Origin: Rhodobacteraceae bacterium HLUCCO07
Lineage (GTDB): Bacteria > Pseudomonadota > Alphaproteobacteria > Rhodobacterales > Rhodobacteraceae
DNA: 64,000 nucleotides
Reading direction: 5' to 3'
Assembly (NCBI GenBank): GCA_001314705.1
Contig: LJSU01000025.1
Coordinates: 1-64,000 of the forward strand
Shown one piece after another: positions 29,477 through 63,910 of the stretch; positions within the stretch are counted from its first letter, which is position 1, and each line of letters starts with the position of its first letter. The notes under the pieces are model-generated. The model was not told where the DNA came from, did not search any database, and saw only the letters and a list, made by a program, of their open reading frames with translations. The position numbers were made by a program, and so were the translations under genes.

Positions 29477-29492
29477 CCTCTGGCCTCTCCGT

Positions 29493-29525
29493 AAAAAGAA
29501 ACGCCCCGGACATGATCCGGGGCGT
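29493..29525 (-). terminator. intrinsic terminator of pnp
   Basis: On the minus strand ACGCCCCGG (29525-29517) pairs with CCGGGGCGT (29509-29501) over a 7-base loop, followed by TTCTTTTT. It lies 33 bases after the pnp stop; the plus strand lacks a U tract, so it serves pnp rather than ade. Confidence 0.85.
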
Positions 29526-29557
29526 CGCTCGCTGTCATCGGAATGGCGCGGGACCTA

Positions 29558-31690: not shown

Positions 31691-32093
31691 CATCGTTTCC
31701 TGTCTGGAGGCACTCCCGGGCGTATCCCGGGTCCTCCGTTTCCAATGGCGGCCCCATTGCCGCCGACCTCTTCATCATCCCATGCGCCGAGGCCAGAGCG
31801 TCACGTCTCAGATGGGGCGCATTTACAGGATCATGGTCGATTTGAAAAGGCGGATGTTGGCGCGTTCCCAACTTGCCGCCACAGGCGCGAACGCCGGTAC
31901 CTGTCACATTCGGCTTCCGGATGGCGCAATGGCCAAAGGTTAACCTGCATGAAAGCCGTCATCGCAAACGCCCCGTTAACCCGTCGAATTCCCGAGATCC
32001 CGGCAGCCGGATGTCAGCCGGGAGTCATACGCGGATCACCCCCCCGATTCGGGCCGCGTTAACCATCGGCGGAATGCCGCGCGTGGTGGCGTC
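31691..32093. other. 403-base intergenic region between pheT and pnp
   Basis: No rpsO or other gene is found here. It contains one copy of the GTTAAC-bounded repeat (31975-32063) close to the pheT end. The other 290 bases up to pnp should hold the pnp promoter and leader; I see no clear -35/-10 pair. CACTCCCGGGCGTATCCCGGG-type short hairpins lie close to the pnp start around 31710-31730. Confidence 0.6.
31975..32063 (-). repeat. GTTAAC-bounded intergenic repeat, copy 1
   Basis: Read on the minus strand: GTTAAC (32063-32058), G7 tract followed by TGA (32045-32037), CCGGCTGACAT (32021-32011) continuing into CCGGCTGCCGGG, then GTTAAC (31980-31975). The same order of elements occurs at 46409-46502 and 53566-53675. 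It begins about 30 bases after the pheT stop and runs in the same direction as pheT. Confidence 0.75.
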
Positions 32094-34490: not shown

Positions 34491-35023
34491 TTGTTTTCTC
34501 TCTGCGCGGTTGCATTTTTCGAGCGAGAATTGGTGACCATTGACAACAAATCGTTGGTCGCGGCGAACCGAAAACGCTTCCTCTTCAAAAACTTGAAAGA
34601 CCGAACAGTATCAGTGAGTTCCAACCTCATCTCCTCTGCTAATGCGTCTTCGAGCTCCAAAATATCCGCTATTTGTTCTCTCGGAGAAAGCCCGGGCTTA
34701 ACTCCTTCGCTACCTTTTTCTTTCAATCTATTCATTAAGGCTCGAAAGGCAGCATATACTCCAGGGGCTTCATAGAGTTTAAGAAGCTCAAGAAGACCTT
34801 CTGCTTCTACCCAATTCTCGCCCCAGACAAATGAAATATCATCCATCTTACCATCAATTAGGTCTCTGAAAAGCAACCTCGACCGGCGCAGGACTTTGCC
34901 AAATAGCTCTCTCTTCTCTTTCTGCAAGTGAAACTTGTATTCTAATGACCTCTGCCAACCGTAGATAACAGTTGATACAATTAGACCAACAATAGCCGCA
35001 GAAGAAATCCATGTCCAACTCAC
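34487..35023 (-). CDS. AT-rich single-TM protein inserted between pheS and pheT
   Basis: A 178-residue protein I do not recognise. One membrane segment at residues about 3-24 ([20 protein letters not shown]) is followed by a basic, helix-rich cytoplasmic-type region ([20 protein letters not shown]). Sampled 60-base lines are 38-47 percent GC against about 63 percent around it, with AT-ending codons (AGA, AAA, TTA, GAA). GTG 35023 overlaps the pheS stop (GTGA), and its TGA overlaps the pheT ATG (ATGA), so it is fitted exactly into the operon. The composition points to transfer from an AT-richer source. Function unknown. Confidence 0.75.
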
Positions 35024-36093
35024 CGACTCAACCCCCCGTGCAGCGTCGGCACATCGAGGCTTGCGAACCCATAGTGGCGCAGCCAGCGCAGGTCGGAATC
35101 AAAGAACGCCCGCAGGTCGGGGATGCCGTATTTCAGCATTGCGATCCGGTCGATCCCCATACCGAAGGCAAAGCCCTGGTACACCTCGGGATTGATCCCC
35201 CCGGCCCTGAGCACGTTGGGATGCACCATACCGCTGCCGAGGATTTCGAGCCAGTCATCGCCCTCGCCCACCTTCAATTGCCCGCCTTCCCAACTGCACC
35301 GGATATCAACCTCGGCGCTCGGCTCGGTGAAGGGGAAATGCGAGGCGCGAAAGCGCAGTTCCACGTCATCGACCTCGAAAAAGGCTTTCACGAATTCTTC
35401 CAGTGTCCACTTGAGGTTGGCCATGGAAATATCGGTGTCCAGCGCCAACCCCTCGACCTGGTGGAACATCGGCGTGTGGGTCTGGTCATAGTCGGCGCGA
35501 TAGACGCGCCCCGGGCAGATCACCCGGATTGGCGCGCCCTGCAATTCCATCGAGCGGATCTGCACCGGGCTGGTATGGGTGCGCAGCACATGCGGCGGGC
35601 GTTCGTCGCCTTCTGCACGGTGCATGTAGAACGTGTCCATCTCGGCCCGTGCCGGGTGGTGGCCGGGAATGTTGAGCGCGTCGAAATTGTGCCAATCGCT
35701 TTCCACCTGCGGCCCCTCGGCCACGGCGAAACCCATGTCGGCAAAGATCGCCGTGACCTCTTCGGTCACTTGGCTGATCGGGTGGATCGTGCCCGCCCGG
35801 CGGGTGCGCCCGGGTAGCGTCACGTCAAGCCACTCACCGCGCAGACGCTCATCCAGTGCAGCATCTGCCAGCGCCTCGCGCTTGGCGGAAAGCGCCGAAT
35901 TTATCTCGTCTTTCAGGGCGTTGAGCTTTGGCCCCATCACCTGCCGCTCGTCCGGGGTCATCTTGCCCAACTCGCGCATTTTCAGGCTGATTTCGCCCTT
36001 CTTGCCCACCGCCTGCACCCGCAGATCCTCAAGCGTGGACTCGTCGTCCGCTTCGGTGATCAGCTTGATATACTTGTCTCTCAGATCGTCCAT
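35020..36093 (-). CDS. pheS: phenylalanine--tRNA ligase alpha subunit
   Basis: The 357-residue class II synthetase subunit. It has an N-terminal coiled coil (residues about 1-85, [17 protein letters not shown] start) and the catalytic domain with motif 2 ([34 protein letters not shown] in parts) and motif 3 ([16 protein letters not shown]). GGAGGG precedes ATG 36093; the frame is open to 36195. A promoter-like pair lies just upstream. PheS is separated from PheT by an AT-rich gene, unlike the usual pheST order. Confidence 0.95.
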
Positions 36094-36119
36094 CCGACCC
36101 TCCGAATTCCGGTTGGCCC

Positions 36120-36148
36120 CTGCTAGCGAGTGCGCCCCCCGAATGCAA
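36120..36148 (-). promoter_or_regulatory. candidate promoter of pheS
   Basis: On the minus strand TTGCAT (36148-36143), 17-base spacer, TAGCAG (36125-36120), 26 bases before the pheS start. Good spacing, moderate -10 match. Confidence 0.45.
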
Positions 36149-36230
36149 GCGCGCGCCCCTTGCATGCAAAGCGATTGATGCGCATCAGAGACCATGAGAC
36201 AACGACGATGTATTGAAGAGGACGGGCCAA

Positions 36231-37430
36231 GTGCACAGGACAGCCCCCGCGATGACGGATGATCCCGCGAAGCCTTGGCTGGTTCTGGCGGGTCTCGCCC
36301 TTGGTGTCACTGTAACGAACGGGTTCGCGCGCTTTGCCTATGGCCTTCTTTTGCCTGCGATGAAATCCGAGCTTGACTGGAGCTACGCGCAGGCAGGCTG
36401 GCTCAACACTGCGAATGCGCTGGGTTACGTGGTGGGGGCGATCCTGACCATGATCCTGATCCGGCAGGTGCGGCCCACGCATCTCTTTGCCTTCGGTCTT
36501 GTCACGACCACGTTGGCGCTTCTGGTGACCGGGCTTGTCACAGCACTCTGGTGGCAGACACTGTGGCGCGTGCTGGCCGGTGTCTTTGGTGCGATGTCCT
36601 TCTCGACCGCGGGTACACTTGCTGCACAGCTTTTTCAGCGTGACCCAAGGCGTAACGCGCTGGCGATCGCGATCCTCTTCGGGTCGGGCGGCGGGCTCGG
36701 TATCGTTCTGTCAGGGGCGGCCCTGCCGATCCTTCTGGGCCAGCAGGGCTATGGCGCGTGGCCATGGGGTTGGGTGCTGATCGGCGGGACAAGCCTTCTT
36801 TTCCTGCCGCTGGGCCTTTGGTCGGCCACGCGCCTTCATGCACCGCGCAAGAGCGAGATCATAGCGATCCCCTTGCCTTTCCGGCGCATGCTCGGGGAGC
36901 TGGTCGGCTATGCCGCCTTTGGCATGGGCTATATCGTCTATCTCACCTTCCTGTCGGCCTGGCTGACCGAGCAGGATGCGACGCCGCTGTTAATCGCAAC
37001 GATCTGGGTCATACTGGGCGGCTGCATCTTCGTTTCACCCATCCTCTGGCGGCCGGTTCTCGCGCGCTATGCCTCGGGGCGCCCTCTCGCCATGATCCTG
37101 GCCGGCATCGCGCTTGGCTCGGCCCTGCCGGTGATAATGCCCGGGCCCGCGGCGCCGGTGATCTCGGCCATCATTTTCGGGCTGTGCGTTTTCATGCCGC
37201 CAGGTGCGGTGACGAGTTTCGCGCGCCAGAACCTGCCGCCCGAAAGCTGGGGCGCGGCGATCGGTTTCTTCACAGTGGTCTTTGCCATCGCACAGACCAT
37301 CGGCCCCTATGCGGCGGGGGTGATCGGCGATCTTGCGGGTGATATCGGGTTCAGCCTATTGGTTGCTGCGGGCATTCTCATGTCGGGCGCGCTGCTGGCG
37401 CTCACGCAACGCTCGTTGGGTCACGACTGA
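36231..37430 (+). CDS. MFS transporter, YbfB/YjiJ-like
   Basis: A membrane protein of about 400 residues with twelve hydrophobic segments in two bundles of six, of the YbfB/YjiJ (MFS_4) family. The first segment reads [22 protein letters not shown], in parts, with the family-typical GFARFAYG. Substrate unknown. GTG 36231 has GAGGA 8 bases before it; ATG 36252 is the alternative and has only a distant site. The gene is divergent from pheS and overlaps the convergent dehydrogenase gene by 10 bases. Confidence 0.82.
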
Positions 37431-38368
37431 CCATCGCCACTGTCAATCCGCCGCTTGAGTTCCAGCAGCCCGATCAACCCCGCATCACGCCGCGCCACCG
37501 GATCGACATCGCCCAACCCGGCAACAAGATCATTCACCCCCTCGATCAGCGTGTTGATCGTTTCGGGGTCGAGTTCCGGCTCACCCAAATCGGCCCAGCG
37601 CGCGGCCTGGGTCGGACCCAGATGCTCCATGTAGTGCCGGAAGCCGCCTGCGCCGCCGCCAAGGTGGTAGGTCAAATAGGGGCCCATCAAGGCCCAGCGC
37701 AGCCCCGGCCCGTTCATCACTGCGCGGTCCACATCCTCGGCACTGGCAATGCCTTCAGCGACGATATGAACCGCCTCGCGGAAGAGAGCAGAGGACAGCC
37801 GGTTCGCCACATGCCCCACCACGTCGCGCTTCAATTCAACCACTTCGCGCCCGATGCTTTCATAGAACGCCCGCGCCGCACCCATTGCCTCCGCCTCGGT
37901 CTGCCGCCCCGGCACCAGTTCGACCAGCGGCACCAGATGCGGCGGGTTGAAGGGATGCGCCACCACGATCCGTTCGGGGTTGTGCGCGCCTTGCTGAATA
38001 TCGCTGGCCAGAAGCGACGAAGTGGACGAGGCGATCACCGTATCCGCCCGCGCGCCAGCCTCGATGCGCGATATGATCTCGCGTTTGACCTCAAGCCGGT
38101 CCGGTCCGCATTCCTGAATGAAATCCGCGTCTTCGCAGGCCCGGGCCGTATCGGAGGCAAAGCACAACCGGTCAAGCGGCAGATCGCCACGCGCCGTGCC
38201 CAGCGCCACGAGATCGGGCCAGGCCCGCCTGACCTCATCCGTTACCCGCGCCTCGAAACCTTCGGCCACGTCCTGCACCGTCACCTGAACGCCATGGGCC
38301 AGGAACAGCGCAGCCCAGCTTGCCCCGATCAGCCCACCACCGACAATCGTGATCGCCTCGATTTGCAT
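37421..38368 (-). CDS. 3-hydroxyacyl-CoA dehydrogenase-family (L-gulonate/carnitine dehydrogenase-like)
   Basis: A 315-residue NAD-dependent dehydrogenase of the 3-hydroxyacyl-CoA dehydrogenase superfamily, stand-alone form. The Rossmann start IVGGGLIGASWAALF (residues 8-22), the QECGPDRLEVK segment, SSTSSLLASDI and HPFNPPHLVPLVELVPG identify the lambda-crystallin/L-gulonate 3-dehydrogenase or carnitine 3-dehydrogenase branch rather than fatty-acid FadB. The substrate cannot be settled. It lies between the MFS gene and the rplT terminator and has its own start after that terminator region on the minus strand. Confidence 0.82.
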   Translation of the reverse strand: MQIEAITIVGGGLIGASWAALFLAHGVQVTVQDVAEGFEARVTDEVRRAWPDLVALGTARGDLPLDRLCFASDTARACEDADFIQECGPDRLEVKREIISRIEAGARADTVIASSTSSLLASDIQQGAHNPERIVVAHPFNPPHLVPLVELVPGRQTEAEAMGAARAFYESIGREVVELKRDVVGHVANRLSSALFREAVHIVAEGIASAEDVDRAVMNGPGLRWALMGPYLTYHLGGGAGGFRHYMEHLGPTQAARWADLGEPELDPETINTLIEGVNDLVAGLGDVDPVARRDAGLIGLLELKRRIDSGDGQS

Positions 38369-38384
38369 GGCATCCTCCTGACAT

Positions 38385-38421
38385 GAAAAAACCCCGCGCT
38401 CGGAGACCGAACCGGGGTTTT
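38385..38421 (-). terminator. intrinsic terminator of rpmI-rplT
   Basis: On the minus strand AAAACCCCGG pairs with the later CGGGGTTTT over a loop of about 15-17 bases, with six Ts following (38390-38385). It is 22 bases after the rplT stop. Confidence 0.8.
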
Positions 38422-38442
38422 CCTGAACTCTTGCGACCAGCC

Positions 38443-38805
38443 TTACGCCAGTGCAGCCTTCGCCTGATTGACGATGGCACCAAATGCGTCGGGCTCATGC
38501 ACGGCAAGATCGGCCAGAACCTTGCGGTCGACCTCGATACCCGACTTGGTCAGGCCGTTGATGAAGCGCGAATAGGTGAGGCTTTCGTCATGCAGGCGCA
38601 CCGCGGCATTGATCCGCTGAATCCAGAGCGCGCGGAAATTGCGCTTGCGGTTCTTGCGGTCGCGGGTCGCATACTGGTTGGCCTTGTCTACAGCCTGACG
38701 CGCCACCTTGAAGGTGTTCTTGCGGCGACCATAGTAACCCTTGGCCGCCTTGACGACCTTCTTGTGACGGGCGTGGGTGGTGGTTCCGCCCTTGACTCTC
38801 GACAT
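38443..38805 (-). CDS. rplT: 50S ribosomal protein L20
   Basis: The 120-residue product matches L20 throughout ([50 protein letters not shown]), a basic protein needed early in large-subunit assembly and a translational repressor of its own operon in several bacteria. It follows rpmI by 14 bases. Confidence 0.97.
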
Positions 38806-38819
38806 CTCTCAAACCCTCC

Positions 38820-39020
38820 TTAACGATCGTACGGCATCATGCCCTTGACGATCTTTTCGTCGGGGGCGCTGAGCGTAGTTGTGCCGCGGGCGTTGCGGAT
38901 GAATTTGTTGGTGCGCTTGATCATGCCGTGGCGTTTGCCAGCCTGGGCTGTCAGAACTCTGCCGGTGGCAGTGACCTTGAACCGCTTCTTGCAGCTCGAC
39001 TTGGTCTTCATCTTGGGCAT
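38820..39020 (-). CDS. rpmI: 50S ribosomal protein L35
   Basis: The 66-residue product [20 protein letters not shown] and following is L35 at its normal length. GGAGA precedes ATG 39020; the longer frame to 39125 covers the leader and promoter. rpmI-rplT is the conserved pair; infC, often the first gene, is not adjacent. Confidence 0.96.
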
Positions 39021-39096
39021 TTCCGTCTCCTTTTCGATCCGGTATTCACGCGACTCGGCATGCCACTCGGGCCGGCCACGCAGGTTGGAGAGGCGC

Positions 39097-39125
39097 CGTA
39101 TACGTTGGCACACCCCATTTGGCAA
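39097..39125 (-). promoter_or_regulatory. candidate sigma70-type promoter of rpmI-rplT
   Basis: On the minus strand TTGCCA (39125-39120), 17-base spacer, TATACG (39102-39097). Predicted leader of about 70 bases before rpmI, long enough for an L20-binding site, which I cannot confirm. Confidence 0.6.
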
Positions 39126-39143
39126 GGGGGGTATCGTCCGGAT

Positions 39144-39368
39144 TCAACCTAGAAGACGTGCGATGACCTTGACAATGACATCGGGAATCTCGTCAACCCG
39201 GTAGCCCCCGGGTTTCTGCGTCATCGCATAGGCAACAAGCCCGCCCGCCACGACCATGACGATGGCGGCAATCCTGGGGGCTCTGCGGTCGGACAGTGCG
39301 GACACCATGGCCGGAACGGAAAACACCCCGATAATCAGACCGATGGTCAATGCCAGATCGTAATCCAT
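39144..39368 (-). CDS. small two-TM membrane protein
   Basis: A 74-residue protein with two hydrophobic segments (residues about 5-24, LALTIGLIIGVFSVPAMVSA, and 33-50, IAAIVMVVAGGLVAYAM) separated by a basic turn (SDRRAPR), and a soluble tail. Family not recognised; such short proteins are often annotated as uncharacterised in Rhodobacteraceae next to pyk. It follows pyk by 39 bases on the same strand. Confidence 0.7.
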   Translation of the reverse strand: MDYDLALTIGLIIGVFSVPAMVSALSDRRAPRIAAIVMVVAGGLVAYAMTQKPGGYRVDEIPDVIVKVIARLLG

Positions 39369-39407
39369 GCCGAGAATCCTTGTGATGATCTGCCCGGTCG
39401 GATGAGC

Positions 39408-40853
39408 CTATTCCGGATCGGAGGCAAAAATCAAACTTTCATCGCATGGGGCAACGCGAAGGATATTCGTCGTTCCGGGAACATTGAAGGGCACCCCCGC
39501 GGTCACAACGATCTGGTCCTCGGTTCCGGCATAGCCATTTATCCGCGCTGCCCGCGCGGCATTTACCACCGCCTGTTTGAAGCGATGAAGTTCGCCCGTC
39601 ATGATGCAGTTCGTGCCCCATGTCAGCGCCAGCCGCCGCGCTGTGCCGCGCAGGCTCGTCATTGCAATGATCGGGACACGCGGACGTTCCCGCGCGGTCA
39701 ATAGCGCGGTCGTGCCCGACTCCGTGTAGCAGCAGATCACCTTGATATCCGTGGTTTCGGCAATCTCGCGCGCGGCAGCGACGATACCATCGGCTATGGT
39801 GTGACGTTCGGCTCGACGCGATGCTTCGATGACTTCGCGATAGGTGGGGTCGCTCTCGACCTCGACGGCGACGTTATTCATCGTCGTAACCGCCTCTACC
39901 GGATAGTGCCCGGCCGCCGATTCTGCCGACAGCATGATCGCATCCGCGCCCTCGTAAATCGCGGTGGCCACGTCCGACACCTCGGCTCGGGTCGGCATCG
40001 GGCTCTCTATCATCGATTCGAGCATCTGCGTGGCGACGATCACCGGCTTGGCCACTGCCCGGCAGCGGCGCACAAGGCGCTTTTGAATTGGTGGAACGTT
40101 CTGCACCGGCAATTCAACCCCGAGATCGCCGCGCGCGACCATGATCCCGTCGGATACCGCGAGGATCTCATCGAAACATTTCACCGCCGAGGGCTTTTCG
40201 ATCTTCGACAATACCGCTGCGCGCCCATCGACCAACTTGCGTGCCTCGATTACGTCCTCTGGACGCTGCACGAAACTCAGCGCCAGCCAGTCGACCCCCA
40301 GATCGCAGACAAACTCCAGATCGTCACGATCCTTGTCGGACAGGGCGGCCAGTGGCAGCACCACGTCTGGCACGTTCACCCCCTTGCGGTTTGAAATCGT
40401 GCCACCCGTGATCACACTGCAGGCAGCGAAATCAGAACCACAATCCTCAACCCGCAACCGGATCTTGCCGTCGTTGATCAAAAGATCGGACCCTGGTTCC
40501 AGGGCGGCGAAAATCTCGGGATGGGGCAGGCAAACGCGGGCCGAATCTCCCTCGCTCTCATCCAGATCAAGGCGAAACGCGGCCCCCTCCTCCAGCTCTT
40601 CTGACTCACGCAGGAAAGTGCCGACCCGCAGCTTGGGCCCCTGAAGATCGGCAAGGATGCCGATCGTGCTGTCGAGATCGCGCTCGATCTCGCGAATGAT
40701 GCGGTATCTCTCGCGGATTTCGTCATGTGTGCCGTGACTCATGTTGAGACGGAATACATCCGCTCCAGCCTCATGAAGCGCTCGGATCATGTCATAGTCG
40801 TTCGATACCGGACCGAGTGTCGCCACGATCTTCACGTTTCTCAATCGTCTCAT
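39408..40853 (-). CDS. pyk: pyruvate kinase
   Basis: Pyruvate kinase converts phosphoenolpyruvate and ADP to pyruvate and ATP. The 481-residue product shows KIVATLGP at the N-terminus, RLNMSHG, ADLQGPKLRVG, the active-site lysine region SKIEKPSAV, the metal-binding MVARGDLGVELP and ATQMLESMI, and a C-terminal allosteric domain. Start ATG 40853 is chosen by family alignment; the frame is open to 40928 and the ribosome site (AGGCAGG) is modest. It is followed by the small membrane protein gene. Confidence 0.95.
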   Translation of the reverse strand: MRRLRNVKIVATLGPVSNDYDMIRALHEAGADVFRLNMSHGTHDEIRERYRIIREIERDLDSTIGILADLQGPKLRVGTFLRESEELEEGAAFRLDLDESEGDSARVCLPHPEIFAALEPGSDLLINDGKIRLRVEDCGSDFAACSVITGGTISNRKGVNVPDVVLPLAALSDKDRDDLEFVCDLGVDWLALSFVQRPEDVIEARKLVDGRAAVLSKIEKPSAVKCFDEILAVSDGIMVARGDLGVELPVQNVPPIQKRLVRRCRAVAKPVIVATQMLESMIESPMPTRAEVSDVATAIYEGADAIMLSAESAAGHYPVEAVTTMNNVAVEVESDPTYREVIEASRRAERHTIADGIVAAAREIAETTDIKVICCYTESGTTALLTARERPRVPIIAMTSLRGTARRLALTWGTNCIMTGELHRFKQAVVNAARAARINGYAGTEDQIVVTAGVPFNVPGTTNILRVAPCDESLIFASDPE

Positions 40854-40978
40854 GCCTGCCTGCCCTTGAACCCTTCGCTCATGACCATAGCGGTTATCCC
40901 CGACCGCCGTCACCCGATCAAATTGCACTCTTCGCCATGCTGCCGTATCTGCCTTAAATCATGCGACAAGGAAAAGAC

Positions 40979-41737
40979 ATGGCGATGACATATCACCCGT
41001 TCGAAATCATTGGCGCGGACCGCCCCTCCCGATGGCTTGTGACCTGCGATCACGCCTCGAACTGCGTGCCGCCCTTCGTCAACGGTGGATCGCTGGGCCT
41101 GGCGCAGGGCGACATGGAACGCCACATCGCTTATGACGTCGGGGCTGCTGGTGTGGCCCGGGCTCTGGCCAAACAACTGGATGCGCCGGCGATCCTGTCC
41201 AATTTCTCGCGCCTCGTGATCGACCCAAACCGGGGCGAGGATGACCCCACGCTGCTGATGCGACTTTATGACGGCACGGTCATTCCGGGCAATCGCAACA
41301 CCGATGCCGCCGAGCGTGAAAAGCGCCTCGATGCCTGTTATCGGCCCTATCACGACGCGATTGACCGGCTGGCCTCGCGGCGTGACGACACCGTGATCCT
41401 GTCGATCCATTCCTATACACCGCAACTGGCCGGGCGTCCGCCCCGCCCATGGCATATCGGTATCCTGCACGCCACCGATGATCGTCTGGCCCGTCCGCTC
41501 ATGCGGCGCTTGCGCAACGAACCCGACCTGTGCATCGGTGAGAACCAACCTTATGGCGGCCACCTGCCCGGTGATGCGATCGACACGCATGCCATTGCGC
41601 ATGGGCGGCTCAATGTGCTGGTCGAGTTCCGCAACGACCTTATTGATGACGAGGCCCATCAACACCTCTGGGCCAACCGGATTGCGCCTATCCTTCAAGC
41701 GGCGCTGTCAGATGCGGATCAACCGGTGCTGACCTGA
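40979..41737 (+). CDS. N-formylglutamate amidohydrolase-family protein
   Basis: A 252-residue zinc hydrolase-like protein of the N-formylglutamate amidohydrolase family. Seen: VTCDHASNCVPP with the metal-ligand His, FSRLVIDPNR, SIHSYTP and NQPYGGHLPGDAIDTHA. Characterised members cleave N-formyl-L-glutamate in histidine breakdown, but no hut genes are here, so another N-acyl or N-formyl substrate is possible. AAGGAAAAG precedes ATG 40979. It is divergent from pyk and upstream of a DUF1244 gene and the D-glutamate cluster. Confidence 0.78.
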   Translation: MAMTYHPFEIIGADRPSRWLVTCDHASNCVPPFVNGGSLGLAQGDMERHIAYDVGAAGVARALAKQLDAPAILSNFSRLVIDPNRGEDDPTLLMRLYDGTVIPGNRNTDAAEREKRLDACYRPYHDAIDRLASRRDDTVILSIHSYTPQLAGRPPRPWHIGILHATDDRLARPLMRRLRNEPDLCIGENQPYGGHLPGDAIDTHAIAHGRLNVLVEFRNDLIDDEAHQHLWANRIAPILQAALSDADQPVLT

Positions 41738-41837
41738 GCGTCGTCACTTGGCGCTTGCCCCCAATGCGCCTGATATGATCGAATTCATCCGATAGGCCAC
41801 AGCGCACCTTCGACGAATGTGGAGGAAGGAGACATAC

Positions 41838-42155
41838 ATGGACGACCAGACCCGCACCGAGATAGAGGCCGCGGCGTTCCGCCGCCTGCGTCAGCACCTG
41901 ATGCAGGATCGACCCGACGTGCAGAACATCGACTTGATGAACCTTGCCGGGTTCTGCCGGAACTGCCTCAGCCGCTGGTATCAGGAGGCCGCTGCAGAAC
42001 GCGGAATCGAAATGTCGAAGGACGAGGCCCGCGAAGTGTATTACGGCATGCCCTACGATACATGGAAGGCACAGAACCAGTCCGAGGCCAGTCCCGAGAA
42101 ACAGGCCGAATTCGAGACGGCATTCAAGGAAAACGTCCTCAAAGACAAGGGCTGA
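41838..42155 (+). CDS. DUF1244-family protein
   Basis: A 105-residue protein of the DUF1244 (SMc04008-like) family: helical, with FRRLRQHLMQDRPDVQN, NLAGFCRNCLSRWYQEAA carrying a Cys pair, and the C-terminal YYGMPYDTWKAQNQ block that identifies the family. Function is unknown; it is conserved in many Proteobacteria. GGAGGAAGGAGA before ATG 41838 is a very strong ribosome site. It is convergent with the aminotransferase gene. Confidence 0.85.
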   Translation: MDDQTRTEIEAAAFRRLRQHLMQDRPDVQNIDLMNLAGFCRNCLSRWYQEAAAERGIEMSKDEAREVYYGMPYDTWKAQNQSEASPEKQAEFETAFKENVLKDKG

Positions 42156-42202
42156 CGCCGTCTTCCTATGCGCCCGCCTTGCTTCAGACCGTTATTCGAC
42201 CC

Positions 42203-43066
42203 TTAGATCGCAGATTTGAGGCTCTCGTCCAAATAGATCTCGCGCAGGCGCCGCGCCACTGGACCCGGTTTGCCGTCTCCCAGTGTTGTGCCGTCGATCT
42301 CGACTACCGGCAGCACAAACGCCGAGGCTGAGGTGACAAAACCTTCGTCGGCTTCTTTTGCTTCATCGAGGGTAAAAGACCGCTCCTCGACCTCCATCTG
42401 TGCCTCGCGGGCGAAACGCAACACGGCTGCGCGGGTGATGCCATGCAGGATGTCATTGGAAAGATGGCGCGTGATGATCTTGCCGTTCTTCACGATATAG
42501 GCATTGTTGCTGGTGCCTTCGGTCACGAACCCGTCCTTGACCATCCACGCATCGTCACATCCTGCCTTCTTGGCCATCATCTTGCCCATGGATGGATAGA
42601 GAAGCTGCACCGTCTTGATATCGCGGCGGCCCCAGCGGATATCCTCGATCGAAATAATCTTGATGCCGGTTTTTGCCGCCGGACTGTCGGCCAGCCCCGG
42701 CTTCGACTGGGTAAAGAGAACCAGTGTCGGCTTGACCTCGTCGGGATCGGGAAACACGAAATCGCGATCCCCGGCCGAACCGCGCGAAACCTGGAGATAG
42801 ATCATCCCGTCGACGAGATCGTTGCGGCGCACCAGTTCACGGTGAATGTCCAGAAGATCGTCAAAAGCTTCGGGCTTTTGCATGTCCAACTCGGCGAGGG
42901 ACCGTTCGAGCCGTGCAAGGTGGCCGTCAAAGTCGATGAGCTTGCCTTCCAGGACGCTCGTTACCTCATAGACGCCATCTGCCATCAGGAACGACCGGTC
43001 GAAGATCGACACTTTCGCCTCATCTTCCGGCAGGTAGTCTCCGTTCACATATACGGTGCGGCTCAT
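42203..43066 (-). CDS. dat: D-amino-acid aminotransferase (class IV)
   Basis: A 287-residue fold-type IV PLP aminotransferase. The PLP lysine is Lys151 in RRDIKTVQLL; RGSAGDRDF and the phosphate-binding VTEGTSNNAYIV are class IV blocks. The length and the RRDIKT context fit D-alanine/D-amino-acid aminotransferase, which moves the amino group of D-amino acids to 2-oxoglutarate giving D-glutamate; branched-chain or ADC lyase function is less likely. TGAGGAGA precedes ATG 43066. It starts 11 bases past the dgcA stop on the same strand, so dgcN, dgcA and dat read as one operon. Confidence 0.82.
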   Translation of the reverse strand: MSRTVYVNGDYLPEDEAKVSIFDRSFLMADGVYEVTSVLEGKLIDFDGHLARLERSLAELDMQKPEAFDDLLDIHRELVRRNDLVDGMIYLQVSRGSAGDRDFVFPDPDEVKPTLVLFTQSKPGLADSPAAKTGIKIISIEDIRWGRRDIKTVQLLYPSMGKMMAKKAGCDDAWMVKDGFVTEGTSNNAYIVKNGKIITRHLSNDILHGITRAAVLRFAREAQMEVEERSFTLDEAKEADEGFVTSASAFVLPVVEIDGTTLGDGKPGPVARRLREIYLDESLKSAI

Positions 43067-43077
43067 TTCACGTCTCC

Positions 43078-44043
43078 TCAGCCCCAAAGCTCGGCCATGG
43101 GCGGGTGCACCCCGGCGTCATCGAATGTCAATGCGTGGTCACGGTCTTCTGCGAGAAGCAACGGCCCGTCAAGGTCGGTCACCATTGCACCCTGTGCAAC
43201 CAGCGTCGCGGGCGCCATGGCCAGGCTCGACCCGACCATGCAGCCGACCATCACCTTGTAGCCCTCGGCAAGCGCCGCCTGTTTGAGCGCCAGCGCCTCG
43301 GTCAGCCCGCCGGTCTTGTCGAGCTTGATGTTCACCACGTCATACTTGCCCTCAAGCATGGGTAGCGATGCCCGGTCATGGGCGCTTTCATCGGCGCAGA
43401 CCGGCACCGGGCGTTCCATGCCGGCCAGCGCCTCGTCCTCGCCCGCGGGCAAGGGTTGTTCGACCAGCGCCACGCCAAGCCGTACCAGATGCGGGGCGAG
43501 ATCGGCATAAACCGCGGCTGACCAGCCTTCGTTGGCATCGACGATGATAGTCGATTTCTGCGCACCCGCCCGCACGGCCTCAAGCCGGGGCATGTCGTCG
43601 GGTGTGCCAAGCTTGATCTTCAACAGTGGGCGGAACGCGTTCTTTTCTGCCTGTTCACGCATCTTGTCGGGTGTATCAAGCGACAGGGTATAGGCCGTGA
43701 TTTCGGGCCCCGGTGTGGGGAGCCCGGCCAGTTCCCAGACCCGTTTGCCCGCCTTCTTGGCTTCAAGATCCCACAGGGCGCAATCCACTGCATTTCGCGC
43801 TGCACCTGCGGGCAGGAAATCGGCCAGAGCGTCGCGCGTCACCGGACCCGACAGGGCCTCGATCTGCGCGGTCACGCTTTCCAGCGTTTCGCCGTAGCGC
43901 GCATATGGCACACATTCCCCCCGGCCCGAGATGAAGCCGTCCGATATCCGCACGGTCAGCACATTGGCCTCGGTCCGCGATCCGCGCGAGATGGTGAATG
44001 CCTGCGCGAGCTTGAAGGTCTCCGGGGTTACGGTGATCTGCAC
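43078..44043 (-). CDS. dgcA: N-acetyl-D-glutamate racemase / dipeptide epimerase-like (enolase superfamily)
   Basis: A 321-residue enolase-superfamily enzyme with every residue of the dipeptide-epimerase active site in place: the KIK pair Lys142/Lys144, metal ligands Asp169 (VDANEGW), Glu195 (EQPLP) and Asp218 (ADES), and Lys240 (NIKLDKTGG). By fold it would be called L-Ala-D/L-Glu epimerase. Immediately next to a DUF1611/DgcN gene, however, it fits DgcA, reported in marine bacteria to convert N-acetyl-D-glutamate to N-acetyl-L-glutamate. The context is what decides between the two names. Confidence 0.82.
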   Translation of the reverse strand: MQITVTPETFKLAQAFTISRGSRTEANVLTVRISDGFISGRGECVPYARYGETLESVTAQIEALSGPVTRDALADFLPAGAARNAVDCALWDLEAKKAGKRVWELAGLPTPGPEITAYTLSLDTPDKMREQAEKNAFRPLLKIKLGTPDDMPRLEAVRAGAQKSTIIVDANEGWSAAVYADLAPHLVRLGVALVEQPLPAGEDEALAGMERPVPVCADESAHDRASLPMLEGKYDVVNIKLDKTGGLTEALALKQAALAEGYKVMVGCMVGSSLAMAPATLVAQGAMVTDLDGPLLLAEDRDHALTFDDAGVHPPMAELWG

Positions 44044-44050
44044 GGGAAAA

Positions 44051-44080
44051 CCCTTTCATCTTGCTTGATATACTCCCGCC
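44051..44080 (-). repeat. intergenic AGTAT...CAAGATGAAA motif
   Basis: On the minus strand AGTATATCAAGCAAGATGAA, between dgcN and dgcA, resembles 18086-18114 (14 of 21 core positions equal). Function unknown. Confidence 0.33.
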
Positions 44081-44115
44081 GGTGGTGTCTCTTGGCGGGT
44101 GCAAATACCGATGGT

Positions 44116-45117
44116 TCAGATCTCGGCCAACGCATCCACCAGCCGCCCGGCACCATGTCGGAAGGGATCAACTGTCGGAAGTCCCATGCGCGCCTCGACT
44201 TCGGCGAGATATGCGGTGGCTTCGTCCTCGCTCAGGTGCTGGGTGTTGACAGAAATTCCCACCACCTTGCATCCCGGGTTGGCCACCTGCGCCAGCGGCA
44301 GCGCCGTGTCGCGCAACGCTTCGAGCGTGGGCAATTGGTAATCGGGCAGGCCACGCATGTGGTCGCGGGTCGGCTCGTGGCACAGGATCAGTGCGTCAGG
44401 CTGCCCACCATGAATGAGCGCCAACGTGACGCCGGAGTAGCTCACATGGAAGAGCGAACCCTGTCCCTCGATCAGATCCCAGTGATCCGCATCATTGTCG
44501 GGTGTCAGCCATTCGATCGACCCGGCCATGAAATCCGCAATCACTGCATCGAGAGGCACGCCGTCACCGGTAATCAGGATGCCGGTCTGCCCGGTGGCGC
44601 GAAAGGTGGATTTCATCCCGCGATGCTTCATGTCGGCATCCATGGCCATCGCGGTATACATCTTGCCGACCGAGCAATCCGTGCCAACGGCAAGGCACCG
44701 TTTGCCGCTGCGTTTCACGCCACTGGCGATGGGATACTTTACTTCGGGCACCCGCACGTCATGCAGGGCACGACCACAGGCCTTGGCCACGGCGACCAGA
44801 TCGGGCTCGTCGCGCAGCAGGTTGTGCAGGCCCGAAGCGAGGTCGAACCCTTCCTCCAGCGCCATGATCAGCACTTTTTTCCACGCCTGGCTGATCACGC
44901 CACCGCGGTTGGCGACGCCGATCACCAGCGTTTCCGCACCGGCGGCTTTCGCGGCAGCAAGGTCCATGTCGGGCAGGCCCATATTGGCCTTGCATCCTTC
45001 CATCCGGTATTGGCCAACCGCATTTTCGGGGCGCCAATCCTTGATGCCCTGGGCCACTTTGGCGGCGAGTTGGTCGGGCGCGTCGCCCAGAAACAACAGA
45101 TATGGTGTCTTGATCAT
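44116..45117 (-). CDS. dgcN: DUF1611-family N-acetyltransferase DgcN
   Basis: A 333-residue DUF1611 protein with a Rossmann-like N-terminal domain (LFLGDAPDQLAAKVAQGI, TLVIGVANRGGVI) and a P-loop NTPase-like C-terminal domain (VGTDCSVGKMYTAMAM near residue 150). DgcN has been reported to N-acetylate D-glutamate as the first step of a marine D-glutamate route, with DgcA next. GGAGGG lies 8 bases before ATG 45117, better than ATG 45123. It is the first gene of dgcN-dgcA-dat and is divergent from mcl1 across 336 bases. Confidence 0.85.
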   Translation of the reverse strand: MIKTPYLLFLGDAPDQLAAKVAQGIKDWRPENAVGQYRMEGCKANMGLPDMDLAAAKAAGAETLVIGVANRGGVISQAWKKVLIMALEEGFDLASGLHNLLRDEPDLVAVAKACGRALHDVRVPEVKYPIASGVKRSGKRCLAVGTDCSVGKMYTAMAMDADMKHRGMKSTFRATGQTGILITGDGVPLDAVIADFMAGSIEWLTPDNDADHWDLIEGQGSLFHVSYSGVTLALIHGGQPDALILCHEPTRDHMRGLPDYQLPTLEALRDTALPLAQVANPGCKVVGISVNTQHLSEDEATAYLAEVEARMGLPTVDPFRHGAGRLVDALAEI

Positions 45118-45453: not shown

Positions 45454-46413
45454 ATGAGCTTTCGCATTCAGCCAGCCGCACCGGCCCGTCCCAACCGCTG
45501 TCAACTCTTTGGCCCCGGTTCAAATACCAAGCTGTTCGAGAAGATGGCAGCGTCAGAAGCCGATGTAATAAACCTCGATCTTGAAGATTCCGTTACCCCC
45601 TCGGACAAGAACGCCGCCCGGGCCAATGTGATCAGGGCGATCAACGGCGTCGATTGGGGCAAGAAGACGCTTTCGGTTCGGATCAACGGGCTCGACACGC
45701 CGTATTGGTACCGCGACGTTGTGGACCTGATGGAACAAGCCGGGCCACGGCTTGACCAGATCATGATTCCAAAGGTGGGCTGCGCCGAGGATGTCTATGC
45801 GGTCGACGCGCTCGTGACCGGGATCGAGCGCGCAATGGGCCGCGAAAAGCCGGTCAGCTTCGAGGTGATCATCGAGAGTGCCGCGGGTATCGCCCATGTC
45901 GAAGCCATCGCCGCGTCGAGCCCGCGATTGCAGGCTATGTCATTGGGAGCAGCCGATTTTGCGGCCTCGATGGGGATGCAGACGACGGGGATCGGGGGGA
46001 CGCAGGAGAATTATTACATGCTGCGCGAGGGGCAGAAACACTGGCCCGATCCGTGGCACTGGGCGCAGGCGGCGATCGTTGCGGCCTGCCGCACGCATGG
46101 CGTCTTGCCGGTCGATGGGCCGTTCGGAGATTTCAGCGATGACGAGGGCTATATCGCGCAGGCACGGCGGTCGGCGACGCTGGGCATGGTCGGGAAATGG
46201 GCCATCCATCCCAAGCAGATTGCGCTTGCAAATCAGGTCTTTACGCCCTCGGAAGAGGCCGTCGCCGAGGCTCGTGAGATCCTTGCCGCGATGGAAGAAG
46301 CCAAGCGCACCGGCGCGGGCGCGACCGTCTACAAGGGCCGCCTGGTCGATATCGCCAGCATCAAGCAGGCCGAGGTGGTCGTCAAACAGGCCGAGCTGAT
46401 CGCCAAGGGTTAA
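45454..46413 (+). CDS. mcl1: L-malyl-CoA/beta-methylmalyl-CoA lyase
   Basis: A 319-residue CitE-like lyase almost the length of Rhodobacter Mcl1. It cleaves beta-methylmalyl-CoA to glyoxylate and propionyl-CoA and malyl-CoA to acetyl-CoA and glyoxylate in the ethylmalonyl-CoA pathway. Seen: RCQLFGPGSNTKLFEKM, VINLDLEDSV with the metal-ligand region, SFEVIIESAAGI with the catalytic Glu, and MVGKWAIHPKQI. AAAGG precedes the ATG. Its stop codon TAA is part of the GTTAAC that opens repeat copy 2. Confidence 0.92.
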   Translation: MSFRIQPAAPARPNRCQLFGPGSNTKLFEKMAASEADVINLDLEDSVTPSDKNAARANVIRAINGVDWGKKTLSVRINGLDTPYWYRDVVDLMEQAGPRLDQIMIPKVGCAEDVYAVDALVTGIERAMGREKPVSFEVIIESAAGIAHVEAIAASSPRLQAMSLGAADFAASMGMQTTGIGGTQENYYMLREGQKHWPDPWHWAQAAIVAACRTHGVLPVDGPFGDFSDDEGYIAQARRSATLGMVGKWAIHPKQIALANQVFTPSEEAVAEAREILAAMEEAKRTGAGATVYKGRLVDIASIKQAEVVVKQAELIAKG

Positions 46414-46502
46414 CGCGGATTCTCGCGGTGAATCGGGGGGGTGACTCCCGGCTGCCGCCCGGCTGACATCCGGCTGCCGGGTGGTTCGCATCAAGGGTTA
46501 AC
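46409..46502 (+). repeat. GTTAAC-bounded intergenic repeat, copy 2
   Basis: GTTAAC (46409-46414), G7 tract then TGAC (46435-46445), CCCGGCTGCCG, CCGGCTGACAT (46459-46469), CCGGCTGCCGGG, then GTTAAC (46497-46502). The mcl1 stop TAA (46411-46413) lies inside the first GTTAAC. Same orientation as mcl1. Confidence 0.77.
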
Positions 46503-46563
46503 GCGCATTAAGTTAATGCAGCGTGCGTCGATCGAGAATTTCTCGGCAAGGTGAGGAGCAGGA

Positions 46564-53565: not shown

Positions 53566-53675
53566 GTTAACACCCCTTTTGGCCGGGATTCGGGGGGGTG
53601 ACATCCGGCTGACATCCGGCTGCTGCCCGGCTGCCGGGCAAAACTTGACGAAACCTTGCCCCACCGTGGTTAACG
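53566..53675 (+). repeat. GTTAAC-bounded intergenic repeat, copy 3
   Basis: GTTAAC (53566-53571), set in a hairpin AAAAGGG/CCCTTTT; G7 tract then TGACA (53592-53603); two CCGGCTG units with CCGGCTGACAT at 53605-53615; CCCGGCTGCCGGG (53626-53638); GTTAAC (53670-53675). Same orientation as mtaB, starting 85 bases after its stop. Confidence 0.77.
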
Positions 53676-53845
53676 CAACGGCCGATGCCCCGGGGTCTGA
53701 CCCATTTGTGCCTACGCCCCTGGAGTTCGGCACCTGGCACAAGATACCCGATGAAGGCCGGGTAACGGGCTGGATTCAGTTTTCTCTGGGCGAAACTGTG
53801 GGATAACCGCTTTGAGCCCGCTGCGGACTTTTCGACAAGAGGGCT

Positions 53846-53872
53846 GCGCCCGCCCGGGGGGCGGTCGGGCGC
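53846..53872. repeat. GC-rich hairpin
   Basis: GCGCCCG (53846-53852) pairs with CGGGCGC (53866-53872); further GC palindromes follow to about 53960. Possibly another intergenic repeat type; no second copy was seen in the window. Confidence 0.4.
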
Positions 53873-54086
53873 TGCCCGGGCGGCTACGCCGCTGTTCCGG
53901 GCAAGGGCAACTTCGTCCGCATAGCGCCCTCGAGCTTCGCCCCGCAACCCGGGGCGCTGCGAAGGCAGGCAGGGCTTCTTTTGTCGGGTGTGGAAGACAA
54001 GATATCTGTCGCACTTGATCGACTTTGGCGCTCGGCACGGGGCGGTTCCGGTTTGTTGCATCCTGATCCTGCTATGCCCGCGCGCT

Positions 54087-61009: not shown

Positions 61010-63910
61010 CTACTGCTCGGGGACAAGGATTTCCCGTTTGCCGACATGGTTAGCCGAGGACACGACGCCCTCTTCTTCCATCTGCTCGACAAGCCGGGCA
61101 GCCTTGTTGTAGCCGATGGCCAGCTTGCGCTGAATGTAGGAGGTCGAGCATTTGCGATCCTTGATCGCGATCGCCACCGCCTGATCATAGAGCGCGTCCT
61201 CGCCGTCGGTATTGCCGCCGAGACCCAGCACCGCGTCGATGCCGTCCACCTTCTCGTCATCCGGGCCTTGGACCACGCCACCGACATAATCGGGCGGGCC
61301 GAAACCCTTGAGGTGGTTGACAATCTCCTCGACCTCCTCGTCGCTGACGAAAGGACCGTGGCAGCGGGTGATCTTGGCCCCGCCGGCCATGTAGAGCATG
61401 TCGCCCATGCCCAGGAGCTGCTCGGCGCCCATTTCGCCAAGGATGGTGCGGCTGTCGATCTTGGACGTCACCTGAAAGCTGATGCGGGTCGGGAAGTTGG
61501 CCTTGATCGTGCCGGTGATCACATCAACCGAGGGCCGCTGCGTGGCCATGATGATGTGTATGCCGGAGGCGCGTGCCATTTGCGCCAGTCGCTGGATGCA
61601 GGCCTCGATTTCCTTGCCTGCGACCATCATGAGGTCGGCCATCTCGTCGACTATGACGACGATATAGGGCATCTTTTCGGGGGCGAATTCCTCGGTCTCG
61701 AAGACGGGTTCGCCGGTCTCGTCGTCAAAACCGGTTTGCACGGTGCGCGAAAACATCTCGCCCTTCGCGAGCGCATCGGCGACGCGGCTGTTGTAGCCGT
61801 CGATGTTGCGCACGCCCATCTTGGACATCTTGCGATAGCGTTCTTCCATCTCGCCCACGACCCATTTCAGGGCCACAACCGCCTTTTTCGGGTCGGTCAC
61901 GACCGGCGAGAGCAGATGTGGAATGCCGTCATAAACGCTGAGCTCCAGCATCTTGGGGTCGATCATGATCATCCGGCATTCTTCGGGCGTAAGCTTGTAG
62001 AGCAGCGACAGGATCATGGTGTTGATTGCCACCGACTTGCCTGACCCGGTGGTCCCCGCGATCAGCAGGTGGGGCATCTTGGCAAGGTTGGCAACGATCG
62101 GATCGCCGCCGATATCCTTGCCCAGGGCGAGCGGCAGCTTGTGGTTGCCGTCGCCATAATCGCGCGAGGACAGGATCTCGCGGAAATTGACCATTTCGCG
62201 GTTGTCGTTGGGCAGTTCGATTCCGATCACGCTGCGGCCCGGCACGGTCGAGACCCGGGCCGAGAGGGCCGACATCGAACGCGCGATGTCGTCGGCAAGA
62301 CCGATCACGCGGCTGGCCTTGAGACCGGGTGCGGGTTCGAGTTCATACATGGTGACAACGGGTCCGGGGCGGACACTCACGATCTCGCCCTTCACGCCGT
62401 AATCGTCGAGTACCGTTTCAAGCATCCGCGCGTTTTCCTCGAGCGCCTCGTCGGAAAGGTGATGGCGCTGTACCTGCTCGGGGCTTGTCAGGAGTGACAG
62501 TGGCGGAAGCTCATAGGATGGTTGCGGGTCGTCGAATTGCAAGGCGGGCTGTGCCTCGGCCCGGGCTCGCGTCGAGGGCTGGATCGGTTTGCGCTGCGGT
62601 TGCTGAACGACCTTGCGCGGCTGGGTGTTCGGAACGGACGCGCCGGCGAGGCCGGCATGATATGCGGGGGCGCTGGCCCCGGCAAGCGCCTCGTCGGCCT
62701 CGTCGAAGCGGCCGGGTTCGGGCGAGGCCGCAACCGATGGTTCGGGTCTGTGGTTCGCGGTGGACAAGGGCGGCTCGGGCGGCAGGTCCACGGCGGGGCC
62801 GGACGTGAGGATGAGTGGATCGGGGCCGCGGCCACGCCCCTTGGTCAACGGTGCATGGGTTTCGGACTGGAACGCTGGGTTCTGGCGGACCCGTGTCTTG
62901 ATCACATCGGCGATGCGGGCGCGGATGCGGTCGTCACCGGGCGCCTCGGGGGCGGTTTCGAAATGCGGTTCGGATTCGACAAGTTCAGGCTCGGGCAACG
63001 TGGTGACGTCGGGATCGGGCCGGCGAATGAGCTTTGACGCCTGCGACAGGAAGCCGGGTTTCCTGACGTCTTGCGCGGTGTTGAAGGATGGCCCGGCGTC
63101 GCGATCCATGGCCGGAAGGTTGGGCTGGTAGCTTGCCGAAGGGCGGTTTTGCGCCTCTTGCATGGCGGTCCATTCGGCGGCCTGCGCGGCTTTCTGCGCG
63201 CGGCGCTCGCGGCGCGCGCTGTTCCTGGCCTGGAGGTTTCGGGCTGTGGCGATGGCGCCGCGGGCGGTCTTGCCGAGCAGGGCCATCAGCCCTGCATAAA
63301 GCATGATCATGCCGATCAGCAGGAAGCGCAGGAAGTGACGCAATTCGGACCTGGTAAAGCCCAGCACGAAAGCTGCACCGAGCATGATCGCGAGACCCAG
63401 AACGATCGACAAGAGCTTGAGCCCGAAGGTGGCCGATATGGGCAGAAGGGTCAGCAGGCTGCCTGCTGCGGTCTTGCCGAAGAGGCCGCCAAGCCCGAAC
63501 GAATGGGTCCATTCGGGGCCGGGAACAAGCGTTGCGGCGTAGATCGACAGGGTCGCGACCCAGATCGGGGCAAAGATCAGCCGGCCCAGGGCCCGGTCGC
63601 TGCCGCGGTGAAGGGCCAGACGCAGACCCCAGGCGACCAACACGGCGGCGAGGCCCCAACTGCCGTGGCCCACGATCATGAACATCGGTGCGGCGACCGA
63701 GGCGCCAAAGCGGCCCATCCAGTTCTCGATCGGTGCGTCCGTGGCAGACATCCACCACGGGTCGGAAGGCGCATAGGACCAGAACATCGCGCACGCGGCC
63801 AACCCGATCAGAATGAGCACGATACCAAGCAATTCCTTGCCGCGCTTCTCGATCGCTTCGGCCATGTTGCTGTCCAGCAGCGGGTCGCGTCCTCGTGCCT
63901 GATATGCCAT
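61010..63910 (-). CDS. ftsK: DNA translocase FtsK
   Basis: FtsK anchors at the septum and pumps chromosome ends toward dif for resolution. The 966-residue product has four hydrophobic segments in residues about 20-190, a Pro/Ala-rich linker (about 260-490), the motor domain with Walker A GTTGSGKS at about 617-624 and Walker [11 protein letters not shown], and a C-terminal winged-helix gamma domain ([18 protein letters not shown]) that reads KOPS. GAGGGA precedes ATG 63910; the frame is open to 63973. The 90 bases to the window end hold its promoter. Confidence 0.95.

Follow-up and report, generated by a model that had tools for sequence, protein, structure and literature searches.

Some 110 evenly spaced, fixed-geometry intergenic elements in Rhodobacteraceae bacterium HLUCCO07: candidate protein-bound sites marking the direction of the chromosome arms

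The element in the window and in its own genome

The window, that is, the whole stretch of 64,000 nucleotides of Rhodobacteraceae bacterium HLUCCO07 analysed here, carries three copies (A, B and C) of an intergenic element bounded by GTTAAC, each of them 3' of a gene for which the names pheT, mcl1 and mtaB were taken over from the original prediction without annotation of our own. The three copies were confirmed where they had been predicted and with the boxes as described (Table 1), and the stop codon of mcl1, TAA at 46411-46413, indeed lies inside the first GTTAAC of copy B. TCGGGGGGGTGA and CCGGCTGACATCCGGCTG occur three times each in the window with no mismatch, and GTTAAC is found nine times against 2.7 expected. 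A full-length model, R2, matches copy B at 46400-46530. A counterpart of copy C was not found in the contig of the congeneric genome G001 that carries the upstream gene (C89 = L219). Just after copy C, at 53846-53922 (also 53718-53820), there is a second palindromic GC-rich repeat, gggctgcgcccgcccggggggcgg..., with many copies in the congeneric genomes G001 and G002 and eight matches on contig C8 of the own genome.

Table 1. Coordinates of the element copies in the window and of the pairs of elements nearest to dif in three genera (window positions except for the dif pairs)
Feature	Position	Strand	Remarks
Copy A	31975..32063	-	GTTAAC to GTTAAC; 3' of pheT; 54 bits with profile R1; same site in G001 (L179)
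Core, copy A	31999..32050	-	G6-TGA and three 11-bp units CGTATG, CGGCTG, CGGCTG, then CCGGG
mcl1 ORF	45454..46413	+	3' end overlaps copy B
Copy B	46409..46502	+	3' of mcl1; same site in G001, G002 and another genus, G096 (L327)
Core, copy B	46430..46483	+	G6-TGA and three 11-bp CGGCTG units, then CCGGG
Outer right arm, copy B	46510..46527	+	aagttaatgcagcgtgcg; equivalent of the usual GGTTAACGCGGCGTGCG end
Copy C	53566..53675	+	3' of mtaB; 61.1 bits; same site in G002 (L187)
Core, copy C	53587..53639	+	G6-TGA and three 11-bp CGGCTG units, then CCGGG
dif pair, G000	235638 and 241800	- and +	outward
dif pair, G096	1344732 and 1350564	- and +	outward
dif pair, G375	2020908 and 2026751	- and +	outward

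The pattern GGGGGGTGA..CGGCTGACAT gave 18 matches in the own genome (G000; 3,426,878 bases, 3.43 Mb) and none in the reversed control; one of these, L014, looks coding and was left out, the other 17 having the appearance of family members. R1, a sequence-only profile of the 17 copies, was used to score 150 of 2588 first-look candidates in G000 and gave 111 matches at E<=1e-4, to which one was added at E=0.005, so that 112 copies were found in the own genome. An exhaustive search of contig C8 and the window recovered the same 15 and 3 copies, respectively. The search of the whole genome and of relatives with a profile thus bears out the ordered boxes as a genuine family. As had been supposed, the copies are not the product of simple recent duplication: the most similar pair among the 112 is 82% identical over 115 bp, ungapped, and 106 different 46-bp cores are found among them. 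On the other hand, the run of exactly seven G that had been described proved to be usually six, GGGGGGTGA being exact in 87 of the 112 copies, and the seventh G is the variable preceding base. GTTAAC as an independent signal was rejected, since 23 of the 31 occurrences on C8 sit within 130 bp of the 15 elements there.

From left to right, the site consists of a GTTAAC arm, a spacer of about 27 bp, GGGGGGTGA, three 11-bp units and, about 76 bp downstream, a second arm, GTTAAC..GCGCG, which makes a composite of about 140 bp whose internal spacing is fixed. The 17 pattern matches, in which GGGGGGTGA is invariant by choice of the search pattern, align gap-free over 56 columns, with CG at columns 20, 31 and 42 in 17/17 and an end near CCGGG; in the family at large the array ends in CCGGG or CACCGCC. 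The outer left arm is GGTTAACG, with about 27 bp between its TTAA and the G run; a left TTAA was found in 104 of the 112 copies, and in 87 of these its distance to G6 is 26-28 bp. The right arm is GGTTAACGCGGCGCGCG; its TTAA was found in 93 copies, in 75 of them at a distance of 75-77 bp downstream of G6. The termini are imperfect inverted repeats, CGCACG..GGGTTAAC on the left and GTTAACGCGGCGCGCG on the right. The three 11-bp steps carry almost only three words: CGGCTG at steps 1, 2 and 3 in 73, 105 and 74 of the 112 copies, CGTATG in 20, 4 and 6, and CGTGCA in 13, 1 and 28. CGGCTG fills all three steps in 34 copies; 70 depart from this at a single step, one has two variant words and seven have an unclassed word. 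The 11-bp units may resemble the 11-bp TGTCA repeats of the OmpR/PhoB-like kind. A possible palindrome in the left spacer (GATTTTTCGGCGAAAAATC in a number of copies) has a mean score of 1.97 against 1.46 in shuffled sequence and 1.67 upstream. In addition, the final TTAA of a number of right arms is closely preceded by further TTAA words (gttaacgcgcattaagttaatgc), for example at 46497-46527 of the window, and this is common in the form found in another genus, G011 (see below).

Distribution, variant forms and conservation at shared sites

With R1, the element was found in three of 61 genomes, all of the own genus (G000, G001 and G002), and under stricter filters at E<=1e-4 there was no match in the 58 relatives outside the genus. 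Across 374 genomes of the family, with 15 candidates scored per genome, R1 gave three carriers, namely the own genome and two from other genera, G096 and G375, in which 96 and 64 matches were then counted; the positions of copies in the latter two come from the matches listed, which leave out one of G096 and some of G375 from these 160, so that counts based on positions are lower bounds. R2, which was made from 49 copies of three genera, adds G011 with 26 matches among 36 genomes searched; its weak matches elsewhere (one each in G007, G009, G012, G020 and G021, two in G026; best E 6e-4) were treated as chance, the alignments of two being viewed. R3, made from seven copies of the G011 form, gave 54 matches in G011, 49 in G000 and 41 in G375, and none in the 33 other genomes searched with it. 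G011 represents a fourth genus, with a form of its own: it has the same arms, and YGNNTG words still recur every 11 bp, but G6-TGA is absent; the words are TGTCTG, CGGCTG, TGGCTG or TGTCTG, and CGTATG. At shared sites, the core is rebuilt in G011.

Further forms came to light in 80 named loci that contain a gene closely related to mcl1. L221 (G001) is a strong carrier, which a strict scan for three words missed because one word is changed. R2 also matched L276 and L277 weakly (E=0.002). These are one contig, filed under two MAG records labelled Roseobacter sp. AQU-03 and Flavobacteriia AQU-04, and on reading it proved to hold a full element 3' of mcl1, composed of GTTAAC, GGGGGGGGTGA, three CGTGCA at 11-bp steps and GTTAAG..GCGCGCG. 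No other locus among the 80 has three of the listed words at 11-bp steps, nor has any of the 10 shuffled versions made of each locus. Moreover, L285 (an uncultured Lentibacter MAG) has after mcl1, at 3455-3590, a looser look-alike with two CGTGCA at 11 bp and GTTAACacaaCGCGCG, and this array may possibly be a further lineage of the element. Since the models are tied to their words, the distribution of the element is understated. On a tree of FtsK, G000, G096, G375 and G011 lie near each other, and the carriers G000, G001, G002, G096 and G375 need two changes, not one; the tree is a hint only, because the row of G012 is probably in a wrong reading frame (branch length 5.2).

Relatives largely share the chromosomal sites of the copies sampled. 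Among 39 congeneric loci picked by R1 score (19 from G001 and 20 from G002), 35 are, by their flanking DNA, the same site as a copy in G000, and the other four had no matching stretch among those fetched from G000. Across genera, where the copies examined were likewise mostly the best-scoring ones, 14/15 copies of G096, 12/15 of G375 and 8/10 of G011 (34/40 in total) sit at the place of a G000 copy and point the same way. In 33 orthologous pairs (L173 and L177 are left out, and L180 was no element), G6TGA is 99% identical, the second and third CGGCT 96 and 98%, and GTTAACGC 93% on the left and 85% on the right, these copies of relatives being mostly the best-scoring ones, a choice that favours conserved cores. 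The spacers of the same pairs are 67-69% identical with 2% gaps, as against 6.5% outside on the right. Orthologous copies also swap words in place. The boxes are thus kept while the spacers drift between species.

Position relative to genes, replication and dif

Gene contexts were taken from a simple codon-usage gene finder written for this analysis. Of the 112 copies, 46 lie between convergent genes, 24 have both neighbours antisense, 22 have both sense, 14 are between divergent genes, four fall inside a called ORF and two are at a contig edge. The 127 background intergenic regions of at least 130 bp on C8 and the window comprise 19 convergent, 41 divergent and 67 tandem ones, so convergent contexts are enriched among the copies (46/106 vs 19/127, P=2e-6) and divergent ones depleted (14/106 vs 41/127, P=6e-4). 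The rule that the element is always 3' of a gene and in the same orientation as it therefore holds for the three window copies and fails over the genome, where sense and antisense copies are about equally frequent (22 vs 24), whereas the bias to gene 3' ends is genome-wide. In short, the elements avoid promoters, favour 3' ends and do not follow the direction of transcription.

The elements are over-dispersed along the chromosome. In G000, the 86 within-contig gaps have a mean of 25 kb, a minimum of 6162 bp and a coefficient of variation (CV) of 0.63, against 0.93 at random, and none is shorter than 5 kb where 14.5 are expected. G096 is very similar (89 gaps, smallest 5832; CV 0.63 vs 0.97; none below 5 kb vs 9.9 expected, the extent of one contig being assumed). 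In G011 the effect is modest, with a CV of 0.78 against 0.98 (P=0.04) and one gap below 5 kb, of 4.3 kb, against 3.8 expected.

Orientation follows replication. The local GC skew read in the orientation of the element is positive, that is, of leading-strand bias, at 103 of the 112 copies, skew being a proxy and partly transcriptional (mean 0.100 in genes co-directional with the element, 0.052 in opposite genes). The agreement is found in every gene context (divergent 13/14, sense 20/22, convergent 43/46), also where the genes on both sides are directed against the element (antisense, 22/24). On C8 the skew is negative for about 250 kb, where 11/12 copies are on the minus strand, and then weakly positive, with 3/3 on the plus strand. 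On C10, the contig with a parS pair, the elements switch between 48 and 66 kb and the skew near 62 kb, about 75 kb from parS. In other genera, replichore agreement is found for 26/33 listed copies on C1 of G375 and 50/60 on C1 and C7 of G096, in counts confined to contigs that have dif or an origin-side switch and made without the two elements next to dif; the arms were bounded by dif and the origin-side switch, the latter read from the elements themselves. On the complete 3.56-Mb chromosome of G011, whose arms were defined from the element strands alone, the best two-arc fit accommodates 45/54 copies, the best of 2000 strand shuffles reaching 43; there the GC skew has the sign of the element in 9/10 loci examined. 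At large scale about one fifth of the copies disagree with their replichore.

Two local features of the skew may be recorded here. Near 253 kb on C8 (L213) there is a second origin-like switch of both skew and elements, adjoined by ORFs that by eye look like PriA, transaldolase and XerC; it may be either a rearrangement or a true boundary. In the window, 28000-45000 is a 17-kb stretch of negative skew with positive skew on both flanks, most of the genes called in it belong to the minus strand, and the orientation of copy A changes along with the skew, which weighs against the replication polarity.

A dif-like sequence was sought by a dif consensus with at most three mismatches, and one was found in G000, one in G096 and three in G375 (C1:2023301 was used). 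In all three genera the two elements nearest to dif lie 2.3-3.5 kb on either side of it, about 6 kb apart, and point outward (Table 1). This is the closest within-contig pair found in G000 and G096. The dif region is syntenic across the three genera. At the G000 pair the local skew, read along each element, hardly departs from zero (+0.003 and -0.015). Around dif (L331, L332 and L333), the three genera display a weak turn of the skew from minus to plus, the opposite of what is expected at a terminus. GGGCAGGG (KOPS) converges on dif, with counts of 16/1 on the left and 1/12 on the right in G000, 10/0 and 0/4 in G096, and 8/0 and 0/9 in G375. It is separate from the element, being found 46 times on the leading and five times on the lagging strand of C8 1-250 kb with the elements masked, and the core consensus does not contain it. 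Near the elements, KOPS agrees with them more weakly (66 vs 35 sites in favour of the element strand; 35/57 informative stretches). The gamma domain of FtsK is present in 14/14 genomes tested, element carriers and non-carriers alike. The window itself encodes FtsK at 61010-63910 on the minus strand, with the gamma domain at C19:61022-61204.

Possible explanations and their meaning

Three readings of the element had been put forward: an mRNA 3'-end element, a protein-binding site array and a non-autonomous mobile repeat. The 11-bp phase, the fixed geometry, the kept boxes and the drifting spacers make a protein-binding array appear the best fit of the three. The boxes at fixed distance, word positions about one helical turn apart and the lack of an RNA fold signal in the four copies folded argue for a protein complex on DNA, and the transcription-independent polarity, even spacing, shared sites and dif pair argue for an action on the chromosome as a whole. 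It is rather probable that the some 110 elements are fixed-geometry, protein-bound sites which mark the direction of the chromosome arms and serve chromosome organisation or segregation.

The elements might instead be remnants of an old non-autonomous transposon whose insertion favoured one replication strand (by single-strand transposition of the IS200/IS605 or REP/RAYT type, or by a TnsE-like process of Tn7 with target immunity) and which gene conversion has kept alike. Single-strand or TnsE-like transposition could account for a strand bias, and target immunity for even spacing; the imperfect terminal inverted repeats and the intergenic placement would fit, and a Y1 transposase match (PF01797) was found once each in G001, G002 and G375. 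However, no Y1_Tnp (PF01797) was found in G000 or G096, the sites are common to species and genera, the boxes are kept while the spacers drift, the copies are at most 82% alike, and plasmid, phage and viral collections, queried with one copy or one pattern, held no match. No empty site was met in passing among the sites compared. A mobile repeat thus has little in its favour, and this origin is regarded as unlikely.

A second alternative is that the elements are sites for supercoiling or nucleoid proteins between convergent genes (gyrase or a NAP; like BIMEs in E. coli) and that their polarity is secondary. BIME/REP and BOX are mosaic, modular intergenic repeats of about 100 copies that avoid promoters, and the element is likewise mosaic, intergenic, promoter-avoiding and present in about 100 copies; the convergent enrichment and divergent depletion given above are what such sites would show. 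To our knowledge, however, BIME/REP and BOX are not evenly spaced, replichore-polar or paired around dif, and no RAYT-type transposase was found in the element's own genome. Transcription-independent replichore polarity, even spacing and the outward dif pair are not predicted by this explanation, and it too is improbable.

Still less can be said for an mRNA 3'-end or termination element that acts in the direction of the upstream gene. The three window copies agree with it, and several relatives' mcl1 genes have, by eye, an ordinary hairpin and T-run where the own genus has the element. This reading of the original prediction is nevertheless unsupported: tandem contexts are 22 sense vs 24 antisense, RNA folds of four copies (z-scores +0.6, +0.6, -0.95 and +1.1) are no better than shuffles, the window has no Rfam match at gathering score, and by eye no T-run follows the CCCGGCTGCCGGG palindrome. 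It is therefore held to be very improbable.

KOPS (FtsK orienting polar sequences) are 8-bp GGGNAGGG motifs that are bound by FtsK gamma and converge at dif. The element is like them polar on the leading strand and oriented from origin to dif. It differs in being a composite of about 140 bp with copies tens of kb from one another, and in that the two copies nearest to dif face outward. AIMS (architecture imparting sequences; PMC5993296) are octamers with a leading-strand bias; both their number and this bias increase toward the terminus, they are common to related taxa and they have been proposed to organise chromosomes. The element shares the leading-strand bias (103/112 by local skew; 45/54 in G011), and unlike AIMS it is no octamer, nor does its bias rise toward the terminus in G011, where 21 of 23 copies are polar in the origin half and 24 of 31 in the terminus half, in a comparison on one chromosome with arms taken from the elements and with a nominal small rise in number. 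The general origin-to-terminus polarity would fit the idea that the element is simply KOPS or another short polar motif of AIMS type, its long conservation being incidental. This can hardly be right: GGGCAGGG is separate and in three genera reverses precisely at dif, with a direction opposite to that of the element pair, and the bias lacks the terminus-ward rise.

For the protein-bound, direction-marking sites, the following mechanism may be considered. A putative protein would bind both GTTAAC arms and the 11-bp array, in which each step comes to about one turn of the helix, and the changed core would reflect co-evolution with this protein. The resulting polar complex might be read by a mover along the chromosome arms (condensin, the replisome or a translocase), and it could hinder moving condensin in a polar manner, signal to it, or serve for loading. 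A full block to replication forks is unlikely, as it would halt both of them short of dif. Control of condensin by DNA sites near the terminus and dif is known from matS/MatP and from XerD-based unloading of condensin; matS, however, is short and confined to the terminus macrodomain, whereas the elements are polar and occur throughout both arcs of G011. In animals, CTCF sites are long, multi-word sites whose orientation matters to moving cohesin. The likeness is an analogy only and implies no relationship, an action of this kind in bacteria being hypothetical. Taken to its full length, the proposal would make the element a bacterial counterpart of orientation-dependent boundary elements, in which evenly spaced polar nucleoprotein sites would let an origin-to-terminus motor (e.g., condensin loaded at parS) pass one way and hinder it the other, the outward pair would keep about 6 kb around dif free, and other lineages would have rewritten the code of interchangeable 11-bp-step words at the sites they share, apparently keeping pace with its protein. 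So detailed a scheme is doubtful and is offered tentatively.

No description of the element was found among the works listed for its sequence, for intergenic repeats in roseobacters and for evenly spaced polar repeats, in literature largely without subscription journals, and it would be an undescribed kind of chromosome-organisation site. Short polar motifs are known, but long, evenly spaced, direction-marking sites kept across genera, together with a pair around dif, appear to be new. If the proposal is true, the chromosome arms of these bacteria hold built-in milestones, and their encounters with condensin, FtsK and replication forks are directly testable. Furthermore, the rewritten core in related lineages would be a natural experiment, in which a DNA-binding protein co-evolves with some hundred sites.
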